Assembly (NCBI GenBank): GCA_905479135.1
Contig: CAJQLJ010000086.1
Location: 1-35,503, forward strand
From: an uncultured Campylobacterales bacterium
GTDB lineage: Bacteria; Campylobacterota; Campylobacteria; Campylobacterales; Arcobacteraceae
Direction: 5' to 3'
Length of the DNA: 35,503 nt
Below the pieces are notes generated by a model that had not been told where the DNA came from, did no database searches, and was given only the letters and a program-made list of their open reading frames with translations. Shown piece by piece: positions 3,683-15,420 of the stretch. The first letter of the stretch is position 1. Each line of letters starts with the position of its first letter. A program made the translations under genes and the position numbers.

Positions 3683-6523
3683 TTAATTACTTTTTGCTTT
3701 TGTACACTTATTTATAAGATAGAAAATAGAATTGTAATCTAAACCAGAATGCTCAGATAATCCTATTTCACAAGTTTTTGAAGTTGAAAATGCATATTTA
3801 GCATTTTTTATACTTTTTGGAAGATCTCTTAATGCAGATTCATTTAATTCAGGAAAGTTGAATCCTCTATCTCCTGCGAATCCACAACATTTTACATCTG
3901 CTGGAATTATTACTTCATTTGAACACATTTGTGCTAAAGTTTTGAACTTAGTTTCTAATCCCATTTTAGAAGAACTACATGTTGTATGTATTGTAATAGG
4001 TTCATTTATTGGTGTAAAGTCTAAATCATTACTTAAAAAGTCTAGAGCGAACTCTATTGGTTCATAAAGTTTTAGATCACTTTTAAACTTTTCTATCATC
4101 GTTTTAGTACATGGGCTAGTATCACACAATACGGGATACTCACCATTATTTGTAGCTTTAATTAAAGCAAGTTCAAGTTGTGATGATTTTGTAGCTCCTG
4201 CTTGAAGAAAACCTTTTGAAGAAAATGGCATTCCACAACAAAGATTTGGTAAGTTTTCAGGAAAGATAATTTGGTAACCAGCTTTTTTTAATAATTCAAC
4301 GGTTACCTCAAATAATTCTTTCTCTTCTACACTTACATCACTTAGTCCCATAGTTCTATTTATACATGATGGAAAATAAACTACTTTTTTATCTGAAACT
4401 TGTTGTTCAAATTTTGTATTTATTTTAATTGGTTTTGGCAATGTTGCATTCCATTTAGGAATTTTTCCTTTAGAAAAATCTCTCATTGTTCCAGTCACTG
4501 TTTGCATACTAGCAGTTCCTAAAAGTTTATGCACAGCATTTGCGCTACCTAAGCCAAACTTCATTCCTTTTAGTGTCATTGAAAAATTATTTGCTACAAA
4601 GTTTGCAACATTTTTTGCATTAGGGCTTAATTGTTCTGCTCTTAAATGTTTAGTTAAATTTCCTGTATCAATATTTACAGGACATGAAGATGAACATAAA
4701 GAACAAGTAGCACAAGTTTCAATTCCATCATATTGGTAAAGTTCTTTATATTCTTTTGCTTCCTCAAGTTGACCAGTTTCTTCTAGTCTTGATATTTCTC
4801 TATTTATTACAATTCTTTGTCTTGGTGTTAATGTTAGCTCATTTGATGGACACGATGGCTCACAGAATCCACACTCAATACATTTATCAATGATTTCATT
4901 ACTTGCAGGCATAGCTTTTAAGTTTTTAAGATGAGCTTCTTGATCATCATTTATTATAACACCTGGATTTAGTAATCCTTTTGGATCAAATAATTCTTTG
5001 ATCTTCTTCATCATTACATAAGCATCATGTCCCCATTCAACTTCTATAAATGCAGCCATATTTCTACCCGTTCCATGTTCTGCTTTTAAGCTACCTTGAT
5101 ATTTAACAGCAACAGAATGAACTACATCATTCATAAACGCATCATATCTTTTTATTTCACTTGGATCTGAAAAATCTTGAGTAAATACAAAGTGGAAATT
5201 TCCTTCAAGCGCATGTCCAAAGATTAAGGCTTCAGTATACTTGTGTTTTTTAAATAAACCTTGTAATTCTAAAGCAGCTTCCGCTAGATATTCAATTGGA
5301 TAAGCAACATCTTCAATAATTACTGTTGTACCAGTTTGTCTTACTGCTCCAACTGCTGGGAATAAACCTTTTCTAATTTTCCAATAAAGAGTATATTCTG
5401 TTACATCTTTTGTAAAATAGATATCTCTTTCTACATCAAATTCTGCTAGCATTTCTTCAATTTGAGCTGTTTGAATATCAAGTTGATTGTCAGAAACTGC
5501 TCTTGTTTCAATTAATAAAGCTGTAATATTTTCACCAAAATCTTTGATAAAATCAGGCATTGCAGGATCATCTTCAATACTTCTTAATCCTGCTCTATCC
5601 ATTAATTCAACTGCATCAACAATAATAGTTTTATCATCACGTGCAAGTTTTAATTTTGTAACAGCAGAACATGCTTCTTCTATATCTTTAAAGTAAATTA
5701 GTGCACTTGCTTTATCTTTTAAATCTTCAACTGTGTAGTATGTAATTTCTTCAATAAAAGCTAAAGTTCCTTCACTACCAATTATTAAGTGTTCTAATAT
5801 TTCGAATTCATCTTCAAAATCAATTAATGCATTTAATGAGTAACCACATGTATTTTTTATTTTGAACTTTCGTTCTATTTTTGCTCTTAATTCTTCATTG
5901 TTTTTCGTGCTTGTTGAGAATTCTTTTAAATCTTTTAAGAATTGTGCATGTGTTAATTTAAATGCATTTTTACTCTCTATACATGATGTATCTAATTTTG
6001 TTCCATCACCAAAAATCAATTTCATTGATTTCAAAGTTTTATATGAGTTTTGAGAAACTCCACAACACATACCTGAGGCATTATTTGCAGCAATTCCACC
6101 AATCATAGCTGCATTTATAGAAGCTGGATCAGGTCCTATTTTTTTAGAATAAGGAGCAAGTAAATTATTTACTTGTTGACCTGTTAGTGCGGGTTGTAAT
6201 GAGATATAACTTCTATCATCAGATATTTTAAAGTTTGTAAATTTTCTTGATGTAACTATTAAAATAGAATCACTAATAGCTTGACCTGAAAGAGAAGTTC
6301 CAGCAGCCCTAAATGTAACGCTTAATTCTAATTCATTTGTTAATTTAATAATATCTTGAACTTCTTGTGCATTATCAGTTTTGATAACTATTTTTGGAAT
6401 TAATCTATAAAATGAAGCATCTGTTCCATAAGCTAATGTATGTAATTTATCAGTAAAAATATTTTTTACTGAGATCTTCTTTGAGATTTGATTATAAAAA
6501 TTTAAATATTTACCATCTAACAT
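3683..6523 (-). CDS. FAD-linked oxidase with C-terminal 4Fe-4S and CCG domains; D-lactate dehydrogenase (Dld-II-like)
   Basis: FAD_binding_4 region (VTFRAAGTSLSGQAISD, GPDPASINAAMIGGIAANNASGMCCG), HGTGRNMAAFIEVEWG, two ferredoxin motifs (CIECGFCEPSCP, CATCSLCSSSCP), CCG motifs (CCGMPFSSKG, CCGFAGDRGF). Confidence 0.88.
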   Translation of the reverse strand: MLDGKYLNFYNQISKKISVKNIFTDKLHTLAYGTDASFYRLIPKIVIKTDNAQEVQDIIKLTNELELSVTFRAAGTSLSGQAISDSILIVTSRKFTNFKISDDRSYISLQPALTGQQVNNLLAPYSKKIGPDPASINAAMIGGIAANNASGMCCGVSQNSYKTLKSMKLIFGDGTKLDTSCIESKNAFKLTHAQFLKDLKEFSTSTKNNEELRAKIERKFKIKNTCGYSLNALIDFEDEFEILEHLIIGSEGTLAFIEEITYYTVEDLKDKASALIYFKDIEEACSAVTKLKLARDDKTIIVDAVELMDRAGLRSIEDDPAMPDFIKDFGENITALLIETRAVSDNQLDIQTAQIEEMLAEFDVERDIYFTKDVTEYTLYWKIRKGLFPAVGAVRQTGTTVIIEDVAYPIEYLAEAALELQGLFKKHKYTEALIFGHALEGNFHFVFTQDFSDPSEIKRYDAFMNDVVHSVAVKYQGSLKAEHGTGRNMAAFIEVEWGHDAYVMMKKIKELFDPKGLLNPGVIINDDQEAHLKNLKAMPASNEIIDKCIECGFCEPSCPSNELTLTPRQRIVINREISRLEETGQLEEAKEYKELYQYDGIETCATCSLCSSSCPVNIDTGNLTKHLRAEQLSPNAKNVANFVANNFSMTLKGMKFGLGSANAVHKLLGTASMQTVTGTMRDFSKGKIPKWNATLPKPIKINTKFEQQVSDKKVVYFPSCINRTMGLSDVSVEEKELFEVTVELLKKAGYQIIFPENLPNLCCGMPFSSKGFLQAGATKSSQLELALIKATNNGEYPVLCDTSPCTKTMIEKFKSDLKLYEPIEFALDFLSNDLDFTPINEPITIHTTCSSSKMGLETKFKTLAQMCSNEVIIPADVKCCGFAGDRGFNFPELNESALRDLPKSIKNAKYAFSTSKTCEIGLSEHSGLDYNSIFYLINKCTKAKSN

Positions 6524-6545
6524 TTTGAGCCTTTTATTTTAAATA

Positions 6546-7913
6546 TCATCCATCAGTACTTGGATTAATTCCAAAGAACTCTGGATAGAAAGCAATTAAC
6601 ATTAATACTACAATTTGAATTGCAATAAATGGTAATACACCTTTATAAATTTGTATTGTTCTAACTGTTGCTGGAACTACCCCTTTTAAGTAGAAAAGGG
6701 AGAATCCAAATGGTGGTGTTAAGAATGATGTTTGTAAGTTCATCGCAATTAAAATAGCAAACCATACAGGATTAATATCTAAGTTCATAGCAATTGGTAC
6801 AAGAATTGGAACAATAATATATGAAATTTCAACAAAATCAATAAAGAATCCTAAAATAAGAATTGCTATCATTGTAAATATAATGAATCCCCATTTTTCA
6901 TCTCCAGGTAAACTCATCATAAAATGCTCAACAATTTCATCTCCACCTGTATATGTAAATACCATAGAAAAAGCTGTTGCACCAATTAAGATTCCAAATA
7001 CCATAGAAGTAATTTTTACAGATTCTAAAGATGCTTCTTTAACCATAGAAATTGAAAATGATTTATAAACAATTGCCAATCCAATTGCTCCTAAACATCC
7101 TACTGCTGATGATTCAGTTGGCGTTGCAATACCTGCAAAAATAGAACCTAGAACTAATAAAATTAGTGTTAGTGATGGAATAATATCAATTAAAGCTCGA
7201 ACTACTTGTTTTCCTTTTGAACCTCGTGTTGGATCAGATGGAATTGCTGGAGCCATTTCTTTATTAAAAAATGATATAACAACTATATATAATATATATG
7301 CACCTACAAGTGCTAATCCTGGACCAATTGCAGCTTTGAATAAATCTCCAACAGGAACTTGAAATACATCTCCTAAGATAATTAAAACAATTGAAGGAGG
7401 AATAATCTGCCCTAATGTACCAGAAGCACAAATAGTACCACAGGCAAGAGGAGTATTATATTTGTATTTCATCATAACAGGAAGTGAAATAACTCCCATT
7501 GCAACAACAGAAGCACCAACAACACCAGTTGAAGCTGCTAATAATGCACCAACTAATACAGTTGAAATAGCAACTCCACCTCTAATTTCTCCAAATAAGA
7601 AGCCCATTGATTCTAAAAGTCTTTCAGCAAGACCAGTTTTTTGTAAAACAATTCCCATAAAAATAAACATAGGAACGGCCATAAGAATTGTATTTTGCAT
7701 AATAGACATAATTCTAAATGGCATAAAGTCAAACATAAGTAGACCTTCCTCAAAGCCCTCAACCAAACCAACTTCAAGTCCATCATCAAAACCAATCTCA
7801 ACAATACCAGCAATAATTCCAAAAAGTACTGATACGGCTGCAAAAGTAAATGCTACAGGAAAACCAAATAGTAGCATTAGTAGTGCAGCAAAAAACATTA
7901 TAATACCAACCAT
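6546..7913 (-). CDS. dctM: TRAP transporter large permease (DctM family)
   Basis: Multi-TM protein with FGFPVAFTFAAVSV and TICASGTLGQIIPPSIVLIILGD motifs; 1-nt overlap with dctQ-like gene. Confidence 0.93.
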   Translation of the reverse strand: MVGIIMFFAALLMLLFGFPVAFTFAAVSVLFGIIAGIVEIGFDDGLEVGLVEGFEEGLLMFDFMPFRIMSIMQNTILMAVPMFIFMGIVLQKTGLAERLLESMGFLFGEIRGGVAISTVLVGALLAASTGVVGASVVAMGVISLPVMMKYKYNTPLACGTICASGTLGQIIPPSIVLIILGDVFQVPVGDLFKAAIGPGLALVGAYILYIVVISFFNKEMAPAIPSDPTRGSKGKQVVRALIDIIPSLTLILLVLGSIFAGIATPTESSAVGCLGAIGLAIVYKSFSISMVKEASLESVKITSMVFGILIGATAFSMVFTYTGGDEIVEHFMMSLPGDEKWGFIIFTMIAILILGFFIDFVEISYIIVPILVPIAMNLDINPVWFAILIAMNLQTSFLTPPFGFSLFYLKGVVPATVRTIQIYKGVLPFIAIQIVVLMLIAFYPEFFGINPSTDG

Positions 7914-8503
7914 TATTTATCTCCTTTATGTAATTTTTCTTCTGATTTATGAACATCTTTTACAATAATATCAATCTCACCATTTACCATATGAGGAGCT
8001 ACAGGATGTAATCCTCTATAAACATTTAAGTTTCTTATAAAAAATCCAATTGATGTAATTATAAGTAAGAAAAAAGATATAGGAATTAGTGATTTTACTA
8101 ACCATCTATTTGTAAGTCCACCTGGATCTCCACTTTGTTCCCCTGATTGATAAGCTTCTATTACATAATCAATTGAACCAAATCCAATTAATAGAGAAAT
8201 TGGTAATATAAAAAATATAACACCAAGCATATTAATAATTGCTTTTTTCTTATCTTTTAATGTATCATAAATTAAATCTACTCTCACATGGCCATCTTCT
8301 TTTAGTGTATAAGAAATACCTAATAGAATGATAATTGAAAATAGATGCCATTCCATTTCTTGCATTGCGATACTTCCTGATCTAAAGAAATATCTCATAA
8401 CAACATCATAAAATACATTCATTATCATTAATACCATTGCAATTGCTGTAATGTAACCAATGATATCTGCAAATTTGTCAAAAACTTTTTCTAGTTTTAA
8501 CAT
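7913..8503 (-). CDS. dctQ: TRAP transporter small permease (DctQ family)
   Basis: Four-TM protein with QEMEWHLFSIIILLGISYTLKEDGHVRVDLIYD, adjacent to DctM and DctP genes. Confidence 0.9.
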   Translation of the reverse strand: MLKLEKVFDKFADIIGYITAIAMVLMIMNVFYDVVMRYFFRSGSIAMQEMEWHLFSIIILLGISYTLKEDGHVRVDLIYDTLKDKKKAIINMLGVIFFILPISLLIGFGSIDYVIEAYQSGEQSGDPGGLTNRWLVKSLIPISFFLLIITSIGFFIRNLNVYRGLHPVAPHMVNGEIDIIVKDVHKSEEKLHKGDK

Positions 8504-8640: not shown

Positions 8641-9714
8641 TTATAAGTTGTCTTTTAAGTATAAGTAATCAGACATTTTAGTCCACTCTCTAGCTTTCTT
8701 TTGGTAAGCAGCTTGTGAATCTAAAACTTTTTTAAGTAAAGGTTGTCCTTTAGTTTTTTCAACTAAAAGTTCGTCATTTGCTTTTCTCATAGCATCCATA
8801 ACTTCTTTAGGGAAAGTTTTGATTTTAATATTTGGATAATCAGCTCCAATTTTAGACCAAGCTTCTGAACTCATATGATAATTTTGAATATACATATCAT
8901 ATGCAGATAATTTCATAGCTGTAACTAAGATTGTTTGTAAATCTTTTGGTAACTTATTATATTTTCTTTCATTTACTAAGAACTGTAACTCAGTTGCTGG
9001 CTCATGCCATCCTGTGTAGTAATAAGGTGCAATTTTGTTGAATCCCATTTTAATGTCCATCCCAGGTCCAACCCATTCAAGTGCATCAATAGTTCCTCTC
9101 TCAAGTGATGTGTATAATTCACCAGAAGCAATATTAGTAACTGTTAATCCTAATTTTGCCATAACTTCACCAGCAAATCCAGGGATTCTCATTTTAAGAC
9201 CTTTTAAGTCATCCACAGTATTAATTTCTTTTCTAAACCATCCACCCATTTGATTTCCAGTGTTTCCACCAGGGAATGATAATACTTTATGTTTTTTATA
9301 TGCTTCTTTCATTAAGTCCATACCACCACCGTGATAGAACCATGCATATTGTTCAGGTGTAGTCATACCAAATGGCATAGTTGTAAATGGTAAAGTATTA
9401 ATATCTTTACCTTTCCAATAATATGATGCAGAGTGACCCATATCGTACTGACCACCTTTAACCATATCTAAAATACCAAGTGCTGCTTTATGTTTATTTG
9501 AAGCATCTACTCTAATTAGTAATCTACCATCAGACATTTCTTCAACCATTTTAGACATATTTAATGGTGCATCAATAAATGGACTTAGAGTTGATCCCCA
9601 AGTAGTTGCAAGTTTCCACTTGTAAACTTTGTCTTTTGCCATTGAGGCTGTACTCAATCCTGCTAGTAAAGCAGAAGCTACAAGTAACTTAGTCGTTGTT
9701 TTTAACATCATCAT
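8641..9714 (-). CDS. dctP: TRAP transporter substrate-binding protein (DctP family; 2-oxoacid/lactate-type)
   Basis: Signal peptide then YKWKLATTWGSTLSPF, GWFRKEINTVDDLKGLKMRIPGFAGEV, LYTSLERGTIDALEWVGP. Start at 9714 supported by AAGGAG just upstream; the longer ORF start (9750) lies upstream of the putative -10 box. Confidence 0.92.
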   Translation of the reverse strand: MMMLKTTTKLLVASALLAGLSTASMAKDKVYKWKLATTWGSTLSPFIDAPLNMSKMVEEMSDGRLLIRVDASNKHKAALGILDMVKGGQYDMGHSASYYWKGKDINTLPFTTMPFGMTTPEQYAWFYHGGGMDLMKEAYKKHKVLSFPGGNTGNQMGGWFRKEINTVDDLKGLKMRIPGFAGEVMAKLGLTVTNIASGELYTSLERGTIDALEWVGPGMDIKMGFNKIAPYYYTGWHEPATELQFLVNERKYNKLPKDLQTILVTAMKLSAYDMYIQNYHMSSEAWSKIGADYPNIKIKTFPKEVMDAMRKANDELLVEKTKGQPLLKKVLDSQAAYQKKAREWTKMSDYLYLKDNL

Positions 9715-9740: not shown

Positions 9741-9777
9741 ATTTTAACAACTAGAAATGATAATGATATGATATTTT
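9741..9777 (-). promoter_or_regulatory. Putative dctP promoter and regulator site (shared with lutA)
   Basis: AAAATATCATATC (9777-9765), TATCAT direct repeat 11 bp apart (9773-9768, 9762-9757), -10-like TAAAAT (9746-9741). Confidence 0.6.
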
Positions 9778-9796: not shown

Positions 9797-10441
9797 TTAT
9801 TTTATTTTAAAGATATATCCCGTATCAACAACCGTTTGAATATAATCATTTGTTAGTACTTTTCTTAAGCGTCTTATTAAACTTCTAATAGAGTCTAATG
9901 TTGCAAAACTTCCTTCCCATACATAGTTTTCTATGGTTTCATAAGATAAAACTTGATTTCTTTTAGTTAAAAAAAGATTTATAAGTAGTCTTTCTTTTTT
10001 AGTTAGTCTTTGCTCAAGTCCATTTATTACAAGTAAAGATGATTTATAATCAAAATAACAGTCTTTGTCAAAATGAATTAAGTCATCTTGTATCTTACAA
10101 AATTTTTCTATTTTTATTTCTAACTCGTCTATAAAAAATGGTTTCTTTAAGTAGTCATTACAACCAAAATCATATGACTGCTTAATATCATCAAGTTCAA
10201 CACTTGCAGATATTATAATTACAGGTATTTCATTATAATATTCCCTGATTTTTTTTAATACCTTAATTCCATCAACATTGGGTACATTAATATCTAAAAT
10301 AAAACAAGAAAAACCATCAGCAATTTTTTCTAAAGCTTGAGAACCATCAAAACATGATTCAACTTTATAGCCTTTAATTTTTAATCTTTTTGTAATAGTG
10401 GCATTTAATTTTTTATTATCTTCTAAAAGTAAAATATTCAT
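9797..10441 (-). CDS. OmpR/PhoB-type DNA-binding response regulator
   Basis: Receiver domain (LLLEDNKKL, FILDINVPNVDGIKVL, KKPF) and C-terminal winged helix (LTKKERLLINLFL, SIRSLIRRLRKVL, TVVDTGYIF). Confidence 0.93.
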   Translation of the reverse strand: MNILLLEDNKKLNATITKRLKIKGYKVESCFDGSQALEKIADGFSCFILDINVPNVDGIKVLKKIREYYNEIPVIIISASVELDDIKQSYDFGCNDYLKKPFFIDELEIKIEKFCKIQDDLIHFDKDCYFDYKSSLLVINGLEQRLTKKERLLINLFLTKRNQVLSYETIENYVWEGSFATLDSIRSLIRRLRKVLTNDYIQTVVDTGYIFKIK

Positions 10442-10442
10442 T

Positions 10443-12632
10443 TCAAACCTTTTTATGAGGTAGCTTAATAGTAAAGACTACGTTTTGTTCTTCATTTCTT
10501 ACGCTAATAGTCCCTCTCATTTTATCTTCAATAATAACCTTAGCCATATAAAGTCCTAATCCCGTTCCGTTACTTTTTGTTGTAAAATACGGTTGAAAAA
10601 TCGAGTGTATGATTTCTTCATCTATTCTTCCCGCATCATCAATAATCTCTATAGTATTATAGTTTACACATCTTTTGATATTAATATTAATATTTCCCTT
10701 CTCATTAGTATCTAGCTGTTTTTCAATAATCTTATTTTTTGCATTATTAATTAAATTTAACAATACTTGTTTAAATTCATTCTCATAACCATAGATAAGC
10801 AGTTCTTCATTTTTACTTTCATAATTAAAGTTCATTTTTATATTAGAATAGAATACTTGTTTTCCAATAATTTCATTTATTTCATGTAGTGATTTAGTAA
10901 TAGAAAAGAGTTTTTTCTTAGTTGATGGCTTTAGGAAATTTCTAAAATCATTTAGTGTTCTAGACATATATTTAATTTGAATCATTGAATCGTTAACAAA
11001 ATCATTAACCTCTATATCTTTCAACTCATTTAGTAAATAAGAGGTTTGAATATCTTGTACTAGAGCTGATAATTCAACTAAAGGCTCATTCCATTGATGA
11101 GCAATCGCAGCAATCATATCACCCATTTCTGCTAATTTACTTTGTTGTATCAAAAACTGTTTTTGTTGTACACGTTCACTAATATCATCCATAATGCAAA
11201 CAATACCACCTACTGTATTATCAATATTTTTATAAACAGCTTTATTTAAAATAATATGTTTCATTTGATTTGATGGTGTGTAAAATGTAAATTCAGAAGT
11301 TGATGTTGAAAAAGTTCTTAGTAACTCTTTATCAATAATTGTATTTTTTGATGCAACTTCATTTGTAAAAAAATCAAATGCAGTTTTTCCAATAACTTGA
11401 TCTCTATGTTCATTCACTAAGTTTGCAAAAGCTAAATTACAACCTAAAAACTTACCATCAATATTTTTATAATAAATAGGATTAGGAATAGTATCAAGAA
11501 GTACTTTATCAAATTCTAGTCTATTAGATAAAGCTAATTCAACTTTTAATCTTCTTTGAATATTTGCTCTTAAAGTTACAACTATAATACTTAAAATTAA
11601 TATTATAAGTATTGCTAAAATTAGAAATTTAGTAGCTTCTTTATATTGTAAACTCGGTTCATTTATAATTGTGTAATCATCAAAATATTTTGTAATATCC
11701 AGATTAAATCTTTCTAACTCATAATAATCAAACATATATTCATTTGGAGACTTTTCTAATATTGGAATTTCAGAGATTTCTTTTCCATTTAATAAGTCAA
11801 TAGCCATTTTTGATACAGCTTCGCCTTGACCTATTGCTGAGGTTAATAATCCTCCTACAATTCCATAGTTTAAATAAAAATCCCAGAGTCCATAAATAGG
11901 TACATTACTAACTTTTCTTATTTCTTTAAATCCTTGTTTATAAGTAAAGTGTTTACCTGCTGTATCTTTAAATAATAGTACAAATAAAATAGCAGTATCA
12001 TTATCTAATTGAGATACTTTTTTTGTTAAAGCATTTATTTCCAAGTTATCAACATATTCAATTTCAAACTCTTTTTTGTATTTTTTAATAATAGGTCTTA
12101 AGTCTCTTTTTACAGCATAACCAGTTTTTGAAGTATCATTAATAATGAGTAACTTTTTTAAATTTGGGTGCAAATCTTTAATCAATTTAAAGTTTTTTTC
12201 TAAATCAACTTGCTCAACTACTCCTGTCATATATTTTTTCATATAATTTTGCTCAAGAAATGCTTTATCAAAATTATTTATTCCGCAAAAAAGTACAGGT
12301 AATTCTTTGAATAAATATTCATGATAGTTTATTGCAAAATCAAAGGCATTATTATCACTAGCAATAATTAAGTCAAAGTTTCTTTTTTTGAATTGTTGTT
12401 TATAAAGTTTTGCTAATTGATCTAAATAAATTGGATCAGCAATTCTTTTTGTGTCCATATATACAGTTGTAAGTTCAATATCTTCTAAGTTTTGAAACTC
12501 TTTTTCAATTGTTTTAGAGATATCATCACTCCAAATATAACCCTTGTGGTAAGAGTGAAGTAATAAAACTTCTTTGGGCTTTTGAGCCATTAGAAATGTT
12601 ATAAAAAGTAAGCTAAATAGTATTATTTTCAT
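10443..12632 (-). CDS. Membrane sensor histidine kinase: N-terminal ABC-substrate-binding-like sensor, TM, PAS, HisKA, HATPase
   Basis: Signal peptide, periplasmic binding-like domain (KEVLLLHSYHKGYIWSDDI), TM segment LILAILIILILSIIVV, PAS (NPIYYKNIDGKFLGCN), H-box MIAAIAHQWNEPL, N-box NLINNAKNKI, G-box NGTGLGLYMAK. Confidence 0.9.
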   Translation of the reverse strand: MKIILFSLLFITFLMAQKPKEVLLLHSYHKGYIWSDDISKTIEKEFQNLEDIELTTVYMDTKRIADPIYLDQLAKLYKQQFKKRNFDLIIASDNNAFDFAINYHEYLFKELPVLFCGINNFDKAFLEQNYMKKYMTGVVEQVDLEKNFKLIKDLHPNLKKLLIINDTSKTGYAVKRDLRPIIKKYKKEFEIEYVDNLEINALTKKVSQLDNDTAILFVLLFKDTAGKHFTYKQGFKEIRKVSNVPIYGLWDFYLNYGIVGGLLTSAIGQGEAVSKMAIDLLNGKEISEIPILEKSPNEYMFDYYELERFNLDITKYFDDYTIINEPSLQYKEATKFLILAILIILILSIIVVTLRANIQRRLKVELALSNRLEFDKVLLDTIPNPIYYKNIDGKFLGCNLAFANLVNEHRDQVIGKTAFDFFTNEVASKNTIIDKELLRTFSTSTSEFTFYTPSNQMKHIILNKAVYKNIDNTVGGIVCIMDDISERVQQKQFLIQQSKLAEMGDMIAAIAHQWNEPLVELSALVQDIQTSYLLNELKDIEVNDFVNDSMIQIKYMSRTLNDFRNFLKPSTKKKLFSITKSLHEINEIIGKQVFYSNIKMNFNYESKNEELLIYGYENEFKQVLLNLINNAKNKIIEKQLDTNEKGNININIKRCVNYNTIEIIDDAGRIDEEIIHSIFQPYFTTKSNGTGLGLYMAKVIIEDKMRGTISVRNEEQNVVFTIKLPHKKV

Positions 12633-12657: not shown

Positions 12658-13245
12658 TCAAGATTTAGTAAAAATTACATAACCAGACTTTGGACCATGA
12701 GCTCCAATAACTAAGGATTGTTCAATATCTGCAGTTTTTGAAGGTCCTGATATAAATACGCCGTACCCAGCATCTTCAAAATTTATTTTTTCATATGCTT
12801 CATGCATATTTGAAACAATTTCCTTCTCATCAATAACAATAACAATATTTTGTGCTATAAAATATAAAGATCTATGTCTATTGTTTTCATTTTTCATCCA
12901 AATAGCACCATTTTCTGCAACTGCAAAATTTCCACTTACTACAGCAACATCAATATTTTTTAAGTTGTGAGGATCTTCTTCATTATTTGAATCAAAGTTT
13001 CCTAAAGTAAAACCTTCAACATTTGAAGCTATTATTTTTTCATCTTTATATAATTCATGGATTGTTTTATCTAAGTCTTTTTTATCAATTTTTAATGCTT
13101 TTCCTCCAACACTTTCAATCATAACAGAGAATTTTTCAAACTTATTTTCATAAGTAGTTCCAAAGTTTTCATAAGATGGAAGTTCTATATCTACTACAAC
13201 ATTATTTTTTCTAATGCTAGCTAATATTTTATCTCTACTAGTCAT
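12658..13245 (-). CDS. lutC: L-lactate utilization protein LutC (LUD domain)
   Basis: LUD-domain protein (VVSGNFAVAENGAIWM, FISGPSKTADIEQSLVIGAHGPKS), overlaps lutB. Confidence 0.88.
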   Translation of the reverse strand: MTSRDKILASIRKNNVVVDIELPSYENFGTTYENKFEKFSVMIESVGGKALKIDKKDLDKTIHELYKDEKIIASNVEGFTLGNFDSNNEEDPHNLKNIDVAVVSGNFAVAENGAIWMKNENNRHRSLYFIAQNIVIVIDEKEIVSNMHEAYEKINFEDAGYGVFISGPSKTADIEQSLVIGAHGPKSGYVIFTKS

Positions 13246-14611
13246 TTAAATCTCCTTGCTCAAACATTTCTTTAAAACTTTTTTCTGCCATTTTTGGCAT
13301 ATCTCTTTGTTTTCCCCATATATTTGCTTTGCTATAAACGATTGAATTTGGAAGTTTAGGGACAATTTTTCTTGCCATCTTTCCAGCAAAATCAAATAGT
13401 TTTGGTTTAGTCATTAGCCATGAAGTTACTTTCATTGCCATTTTCTTTTTTGAATCAATTAGATTTAATTCACTTAAATCTTGTCTTCTTGAATAAAGTT
13501 GAGAATCTAAATCAATTTTTACAGGACAAACATTTGTGCATGAACCACATAAAGTACATGCAAATGGAAGAGAATTATGTTTTTCTGGTTCTTTTACAGA
13601 TCCTAAAATAGAACCAATTGGTCCTGGAATTACATATTCATACGAGTGACCACCTGATCTTCTATACACAGGACATGTGTTCATACAAGCTCCACATCTA
13701 ATACAGTTTAATGCTTTTTTGTATTTTGAAGATGATAAAAAATCACTTCTTTTATTATCAACGATAATAATATGCATTTCCCCTCCCTCAACAGGCGCAT
13801 GAAAATGTGAAGTGTATGAAGTAACAGGTTGTCCTGTAGCAGATCTTGCTAAAATTCTTGTAAAAACTGATAAGTCTTCAAGACGTGGTATTACTTTTTC
13901 AATTCCCATTGAAGCTATGTGAAGTTTAGGAACAGATGCTCCCATATCGGCATTTCCTTCATTTGTACAAACGACAACTCCTCCAGTTTGGGCAATCGCA
14001 AAATTAACTCCAGTCATTCCTGCTTCTGCATTTAGAAAATCTTCTCGTAAACTTTCTCGTGCTGATCGTGTAAGATATGTAGGATCATCATTACCAACTT
14101 CTGTTCCTAAGTGCTCTACAAATGTATCAGCGACATCAGATCTCTTAAGATGAATTGCAGGTAGAACTATATGTGATGGTGCTTCATCTCTTAGTTGAAC
14201 AATTCTCTCACCTAAATCTGTATCAATTACTTCAATACCACGCTCTTCTAAAAAAGGGTTTAGATGACATTCTTCTGTTAGCATCGATTTTGATTTAACT
14301 AATTTCTTTACATTTTTTTCTTTTAAAAGTTTATATGCTATTTCATTATGTTCTTTAGCATCTGATGCATAATGAATATTTATTCCTTTTTCTTTTGCAT
14401 TTTTTTCAAATTCTAAAAGGTATGTGTCAAGATTTGCCATTGTATGAGACTTGATTCGACTTCCGTATTCTCGTAATTGTTCCCATTCAGGAATAGTCTT
14501 AGTAGCTACATCTCTTTTTTCTCTAACAAACCATAATGCTTGGTCATGCCAATGCATTCTTTCATCGTTTGCTACAAATATTTTCGCATTTAGTGGATGA
14601 TTAGTACTCAT
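13238..14611 (-). CDS. lutB: L-lactate utilization iron-sulfur protein LutB
   Basis: LUD domain plus ferredoxin motifs CIRCGACMNTCPVYRR and CTLCGSCTNVCPVKID. Confidence 0.94.
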   Translation of the reverse strand: MSTNHPLNAKIFVANDERMHWHDQALWFVREKRDVATKTIPEWEQLREYGSRIKSHTMANLDTYLLEFEKNAKEKGINIHYASDAKEHNEIAYKLLKEKNVKKLVKSKSMLTEECHLNPFLEERGIEVIDTDLGERIVQLRDEAPSHIVLPAIHLKRSDVADTFVEHLGTEVGNDDPTYLTRSARESLREDFLNAEAGMTGVNFAIAQTGGVVVCTNEGNADMGASVPKLHIASMGIEKVIPRLEDLSVFTRILARSATGQPVTSYTSHFHAPVEGGEMHIIIVDNKRSDFLSSSKYKKALNCIRCGACMNTCPVYRRSGGHSYEYVIPGPIGSILGSVKEPEKHNSLPFACTLCGSCTNVCPVKIDLDSQLYSRRQDLSELNLIDSKKKMAMKVTSWLMTKPKLFDFAGKMARKIVPKLPNSIVYSKANIWGKQRDMPKMAEKSFKEMFEQGDLND

Positions 14612-15357
14612 ACTTCTTCTCCTAATAGGATTTGAACAACATGTTTTACTTTTATGGCTTGATTGTTTCTATTAATAATTCCATCCATATGCATTAAACA
14701 TGACATATCTGCACCTGTCATAATTGAGGCTTTAGAATCTATATGATCTTTTATTCTATCTTTTCCCATTGCAATTGAAAGGTCTTCTTGTTGAACTGAG
14801 AATGTTCCACCAAATCCACAGCATTCATCTTCTCTTTTTAAATTTACAAGTTCAATTTGAGGTACTTTGTTTAATAAGTTCTTCAATTTCGAATCATAAG
14901 GAATATTTAATTCACTAGCACTTGCAAGTTTTAATAGTCTGTGTCCATGACATGAATTATGTAATCCTACTTTATATGGATAAGGTTTACTAAAGTTTAA
15001 ATTTTCAACTTTAACAATATCATGTAAAAATTCACACACTTCATAAATTGAAGCTTTTACTTTATTATAGTCTTTATCATTATCAAAAAAAGGAGCATAG
15101 TGTTCTTTCACCATTGATACACAAGAACCACTAGGTGCAACAATATAATCATATTCTTTAAATATCTTTACAAATTGTTTTGCAAGTACATTAACATCTT
15201 TTGAGCATCCTGCATTTGCCATTGGTTGACCACAACATGTTTGACTTAGAGGGTAATCGATATTTAAACCTTGTTGTTTTAATATTTTATATGTGGATTT
15301 ACATATATCTGGGTATAGCTCATTCATAAAACAGGGGATAAACAAACCTATTTTCAT
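14608..15357 (-). CDS. lutA: L-lactate utilization protein LutA (CCG-domain Fe-S oxidoreductase)
   Basis: Two CCG-type motifs (CCGQPMANAGCS, CCGFGGTFSV); 4-nt overlap with lutB. Confidence 0.93.
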   Translation of the reverse strand: MKIGLFIPCFMNELYPDICKSTYKILKQQGLNIDYPLSQTCCGQPMANAGCSKDVNVLAKQFVKIFKEYDYIVAPSGSCVSMVKEHYAPFFDNDKDYNKVKASIYEVCEFLHDIVKVENLNFSKPYPYKVGLHNSCHGHRLLKLASASELNIPYDSKLKNLLNKVPQIELVNLKREDECCGFGGTFSVQQEDLSIAMGKDRIKDHIDSKASIMTGADMSCLMHMDGIINRNNQAIKVKHVVQILLGEEV

Positions 15358-15383: not shown

Positions 15384-15420
15384 ATTTTATTCTTAATATA
15401 TGAAATAGATATGATATTTT
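15384..15420 (-). promoter_or_regulatory. Putative lutA promoter and regulator site (shared with dctP)
   Basis: AAAATATCATATC (15420-15408), TATCAT / TTTCAT direct repeat 11 bp apart (15416-15411, 15405-15400), -10-like TAAAAT (15389-15384). Confidence 0.6.

Follow-up and report, generated by a model that had tools for sequence, protein, structure and literature searches.

The dctP and lutA promoters of a lactate uptake and oxidation locus in an uncultured Campylobacterales bacterium carry the same direct-repeat element at the same position, and we consider it likely (probability about 0.82) that this element is the activator operator of the OmpR/PhoB-family response regulator encoded between them at 9797-10441; binding and activation are deduced here from sequence patterns. 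The window is the whole 35,503-nucleotide stretch of DNA that was analysed, and all of the features described in it below lie on its minus strand.

The lactate locus and its two-component system

The cluster runs in the order lutA-lutB-lutC-kinase-regulator and then dctP-dctQ-dctM-dld-like oxidase, as assigned by Pfam. The lut operon begins with lutA (14608-15357; CCG), which is followed by lutB (13238-14611; LUD_dom and LutB_C, with a score of 432 bits for the NCBIfam model TIGR00273 (LutB/LldF), just below its cut-off of 444.8) and lutC (12658-13245; LUD_dom). The sensor histidine kinase gene (10443-12632) encodes an ABC_sub_bind-like N-terminal domain, a PAS domain and a HATPase domain. The TRAP solute-binding protein gene dctP (8641-9714; DctP) is the first gene of a dctPQM(-dld) unit that continues with dctQ (7913-8503; DctQ), dctM (6546-7913; DctM) and a dld-like FAD/Fe-S oxidase gene (3683-6523; FAD-oxidase_C, FAD_binding_4, Fer4 and CCG) whose product is probably a D-lactate (2-hydroxyacid) dehydrogenase. 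Between dctM and dld, 18 relatives' loci (among L059-L081, L158 and L161) have a 34-41-codon open frame, mostly ending in QQRIYTVPRLE followed by the stop codon, and in L070 and L075 the element described below sits directly 5' of this small frame. The same position in the window (6523-6546) is a 22-nt gap without it, and one search of the window's genome, run without a positive control, did not find the frame.

The regulator (9797-10441) is the proposed binding protein. It consists of a receiver domain (PF00072, 81.3 bits) and a Trans_reg_C winged helix (PF00486, 49.6 bits), both above their cut-offs, and its score of 92.5 bits for the PhoB model TIGR02154 falls far short of the 296.2-bit cut-off, so that it is not identified as PhoB itself. 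Its recognition helix, SIRSLIRRLRK, is nearly invariant among orthologues. The original prediction had called this regulator orphan-looking, a description that did not hold, because the gene of its HATPase_c kinase (10443-12632) directly adjoins it. The gap from lutC to the kinase gene is 25 nt and that from the kinase gene to the regulator gene is 1 nt; therefore the lutA promoter most likely transcribes the kinase and regulator genes as well, and, judging from this gene order, the regulator is probably co-transcribed with lutABC and hence autoregulated.

A paired element at the dctP and lutA promoters

An exact 13-mer, AAAATATCATATC, occurs at 9765-9777 and at 15408-15420, in both cases 51-63 nt 5' of a start codon (the dctP ATG at 9714 and the lutA ATG at 15357). 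Read directly from the sequence, the dctP promoter element (9741-9777) is AAAA-TATCAT-ATCAT-TATCAT-TTCTAGTTGT-TAAAAT, with its -10 box at 9741-9746, and the lutA promoter element (15384-15420) is AAAA-TATCAT-ATCTA-TTTCAT-ATATTAAGAA-TAAAAT, with its -10 box at 15384-15389. Both are thus instances of TATCAT-N5-TNTCAT-N10-TANAAT, in which the half-sites repeat directly at 11 bp and a rigid gap of 10 nt separates them from the -10 box. The original prediction was accurate in these particulars: the 13-mer begins 63 nt before each ATG, the second half-site (TATCAT at dctP, TTTCAT at lutA) lies 11 bp after the first TATCAT, and TAAAAT is found 27-32 nt before the ATG at both genes. Its assignment of the 11-bp repeat to the layout used by OmpR/PhoB-family regulators also agrees with published operators, in which direct repeats at 11 bp are an established form for this family (PMC4415409, PMC3798270). 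Across the promoters that we scored, the information content resides mainly in both half-sites, in the -10 box and in the run of A that precedes the first half-site, and nearly all have the N10 spacing to a TANAAT-like box.

When the 30 upstream regions of the window are compared with one another, no identical run at equal offset is longer than the 13 nt of the dctP/lutA pair (the runner-up is 9), and a same-offset run of at least 13 nt arose in 1.8% of first-order Markov simulations. A 13-mer common to any two offsets is not significant among these 30 regions, as 76% of the simulations reach it. The same-offset match is therefore only modest within the window (about 2% by chance), and other evidence matters. 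In the 1.52-Mb genome assembly (88% complete) the exact 13-mer has three copies. The third (on contig C91) was rejected as a site; it lies within a coding region that belongs to a cluster of type II secretion genes and does not match the full pattern. The 34-nt pattern ATATCAYN7TCAYN10TANNAT has exactly two matches in the genome, the dctP and lutA promoters, and its reversed control has 0 matches there.

Conservation of the element among relatives

We surveyed 107 genomes of the family, of which 73 have an orthologue of the kinase and 34 do not. Base composition and gene content suggest that this family is Arcobacteraceae-like. The element pattern is present in 70 of the 73 and in none (0/34) of the genomes without the kinase (Fisher 8e-25, uncorrected for relatedness). 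By genus, 13 have both kinase and element and 7 have neither, and within a single genus (g10) the element is found in 21/23 kinase-bearing and 0/9 kinase-less genomes. Thirteen genera keep the element 5' of lutA and dctP, and in the orthologous loci of relatives (stretches of at most 20 kb) gene order and element are mostly retained. Absence of the element upstream of lut and dct orthologues had been named in advance as an outcome that would count against the prediction, and the opposite was found.

Individual promoters were scored as matches over 17 defined positions, for which shuffled sequence gives ~12; these positions were picked after part of the sequences had been seen, so the scores are biased upward (the pattern counts have their own reversed controls). 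All of the dctP promoters (57/57) reach 16-17. Of the 70 lutA promoters, 66 reach 15-17 and the remaining four (G017, G115, G126 and G127) have degraded sites of 13-14/17. In front of lutA in L074, L075 and L080 the distance to the ATG is longer, yet the 10-nt gap from the second half-site to the -10 box is unchanged. Where dctPQM-dld has been relocated about 14-16 kb away (G009 and G011) or to a separate contig (G008), the element is retained. In G013, which has a lutA (63% identical) but not the kinase, the element is absent, and G030 has the kinase, lacks lut and still has the element at dctP. Because lutA, the kinase and the regulator are usually inherited as one block, co-occurrence alone cannot tell an element bound by the regulator from one that belongs to the inherited module; the most telling cases, though few in number, are for this reason G013, G030 and the dctP genes that have moved.

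The element also follows lactate function across unrelated transporters. In 12 genomes DctPQM is replaced by the unrelated L-lactate permease LctP (PF02652), and the lctP promoter has the element in 12/12, in the form AATCAT-N5-T[TCA]TCAT-N10-TAATAT or close to it (15-16/17). In G034, G061 and G065, where dld heads its own unit, dld has its own element directly upstream. The lctP and dld promoters, together with the 70/73 versus 0/34 co-occurrence with the kinase, support the suggestion of a small lactate regulon under the local pair, and lactate is the probable signal, judging from gene content. Most second dctP paralogues (64-77% identical) are without the element; G024 and G030 have a site or partial one. 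The half-sites are short and AT-rich. In some family genomes the pattern also matches at places that are not near lactate genes, which may mean either a wider regulon or chance matches among them.

Outside the family, a genome from another family of the order (G040) has the 34-nt pattern 11 times, mostly as ATATCAY-AAAAATATCAY, which suggests a different OmpR-type regulon. A more distant relative in another family (L083, G055) has an adjacent pair whose kinase is 34% and whose regulator is 46% identical to those of the lactate locus.

Related kinase/regulator pairs

Other kinase/regulator pairs of this kind (kinases about 33-36% identical) adjoin other transporters. Loci with a PF00939 transporter have a box of the same geometry, [AT]GYCAY-N5-NGYCAY-N10-TANNWT; when all 107 genomes were searched, this pattern occurred once each in 27 of them, 19 times directly before the transporter gene, and its reversed control had no match. 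A further pair adjoins an operon that starts with aspA; in L150 this operon has the box AGTCAC-N5-GTTCAC-N10-TAGAAT, and L164 has a similar one. The regulator of G035 is just 51% identical, and the dctP promoter of this genome reads TGTTAT-N5-TGTTAT-N10-TACAAT. When the family was searched for this variant, the sites in G035 and G119 conformed to the layout; the pattern also has background matches, so the variant is only suggestive. The recognition helices differ accordingly, SIRSLIRRLRK in the lactate regulators and mostly NIR-x-MIKRLRKK in the PF00939 group. There is perhaps an even chance that the paralogous pairs beside carboxylate transporters use one fixed layout (half-site, N5, half-site, N10, -10 box) in which the half-site letters alone differ and constitute a specificity code, namely TATCAT for lactate, [AT]GYCAY for PF00939 transporters and possibly TGTTAT (the divergent lactate lineage) and AGTCAC/GTTCAC (aspA).

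In L066, L067 and L068 the lactate pair is accompanied by another, convergently oriented kinase/regulator pair that shares about 50-60% identity with it, and in G009 the pair of this second, convergent type comes after acyl-CoA/ketoacid genes. Boxes of the form AGTCAT-ACTAA-AGTCAY-N10-TATAAT occur at G036:C1:286768, at G020:C1:261132 and in four other g12 genomes; those in G036 and G020 have a paralogous kinase gene no more than about 7 kb away, and the boxes have no long frame starting within 160 nt.

Proposed mechanism and alternatives

We propose that two regulator DNA-binding domains would sit head-to-tail on the half-sites TATCAT and T-N-TCAT, 11 bp apart. If the -10 box is placed at -12 to -7, the half-sites would fall at roughly -39 to -34 and -28 to -23, and the bound dimer could stand in for a -35 element and recruit RNA polymerase. 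The ABC_sub_bind-like sensor region of the kinase, probably periplasmic, would sense lactate or a related 2-hydroxyacid, and the phosphorylated regulator would then turn on lutABC-kinase-regulator, giving positive feedback, and dctPQM-dld.

The same local regulator might instead repress these genes when lactate is absent. This is the main alternative and we regard it as unlikely, although a site that overlaps the core promoter would suit a repressor too and the direction of control cannot be read from sequence. The gap to the -10 box is rigid in more than 120 promoters and the position over the -35 region fits the PhoB activator layout, whereas repressor sites commonly tolerate more positional drift. 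There is a negligible probability that the two promoters share the 13-mer by chance, owing to their AT-rich sequence, or because it is a feature of promoters in general. The modest same-offset statistic and the ready sharing of 13-mers at any offset within the window would allow it, but it is contradicted by the cross-genome conservation, by the presence of only two full-pattern matches in the genome, by reversed controls near zero in this genome and in the family genomes, and by the recurrence of the element at the non-homologous lctP promoters. On the conservation, chance is rejected as the origin of the shared element.

It is also quite improbable that the element is bound by a more global regulator (for example PhoB-like or CemR/HP1021) and that the adjacent two-component system is incidental. 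The half-site and 11-bp repeat do resemble the E. coli PHO box CTGTCAT (PMC4415409), and Campylobacter jejuni CemR (Cj1608) binds the lctP promoter, lut and lctP both being down in its mutant (PMC11334517), so additional control of this kind is possible. In most genomes, however, the element is concentrated on lactate genes; had a global regulator been responsible, its box should still be found at other promoters of the genomes without the kinase, where the count is 0/34, and the paralogous kinase/regulator loci have half-sites of their own near their own transporters. Activation by the locally encoded regulator is thus the reading that we prefer.

Relation to known systems and significance

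The PHO box is made up of two direct-repeat units of 11 nt on which an OmpR/PhoB-family regulator binds head-to-tail (PMC4415409). The lactate element has a similar TCAT core and would be bound in the same way. The element is nevertheless not a PHO box: its half-site is TATCAT rather than CTGTCAT, it stands before lactate genes, the linked kinase is distinguished by an ABC_sub_bind-like sensor region, and no link to phosphate was seen in the linked genes. The ArcA box likewise has direct repeats with 11-bp centre-to-centre spacing (PMC3798270), but ArcA sites vary in number and position, whereas the lactate element has two repeats at a rigid distance from the -10 box. LurR of Desulfovibrio is also reported to regulate lactate oxidation genes within a network of two-component regulators (PMC6456213), in a different organism and operon from those considered here. 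CemR, too, is a response regulator from Campylobacteria whose action extends to the lactate permease and lut genes; it is described as atypical, probably redox-responsive and wide in its effects on energy metabolism (PMC11334517), and, unlike the regulator at 9797-10441, it is not encoded in a lactate locus of this type. A search of openly licensed papers found no prior description of the lactate regulon; the mechanism is familiar, and the regulon appears not to have been described previously.

Through these results a lactate uptake and oxidation module that occurs in about two thirds of the genomes examined from the family gains a regulator and a site together with a likely function, and the element is a ready pattern for finding further members of the regulon. 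If the proposed code is true, specificity would be readable from linked recognition helices and operators. The lactate pair and its paralogues also supply regulators and sites that are naturally matched, on which one can test by what means closely related response regulators escape cross-talk.
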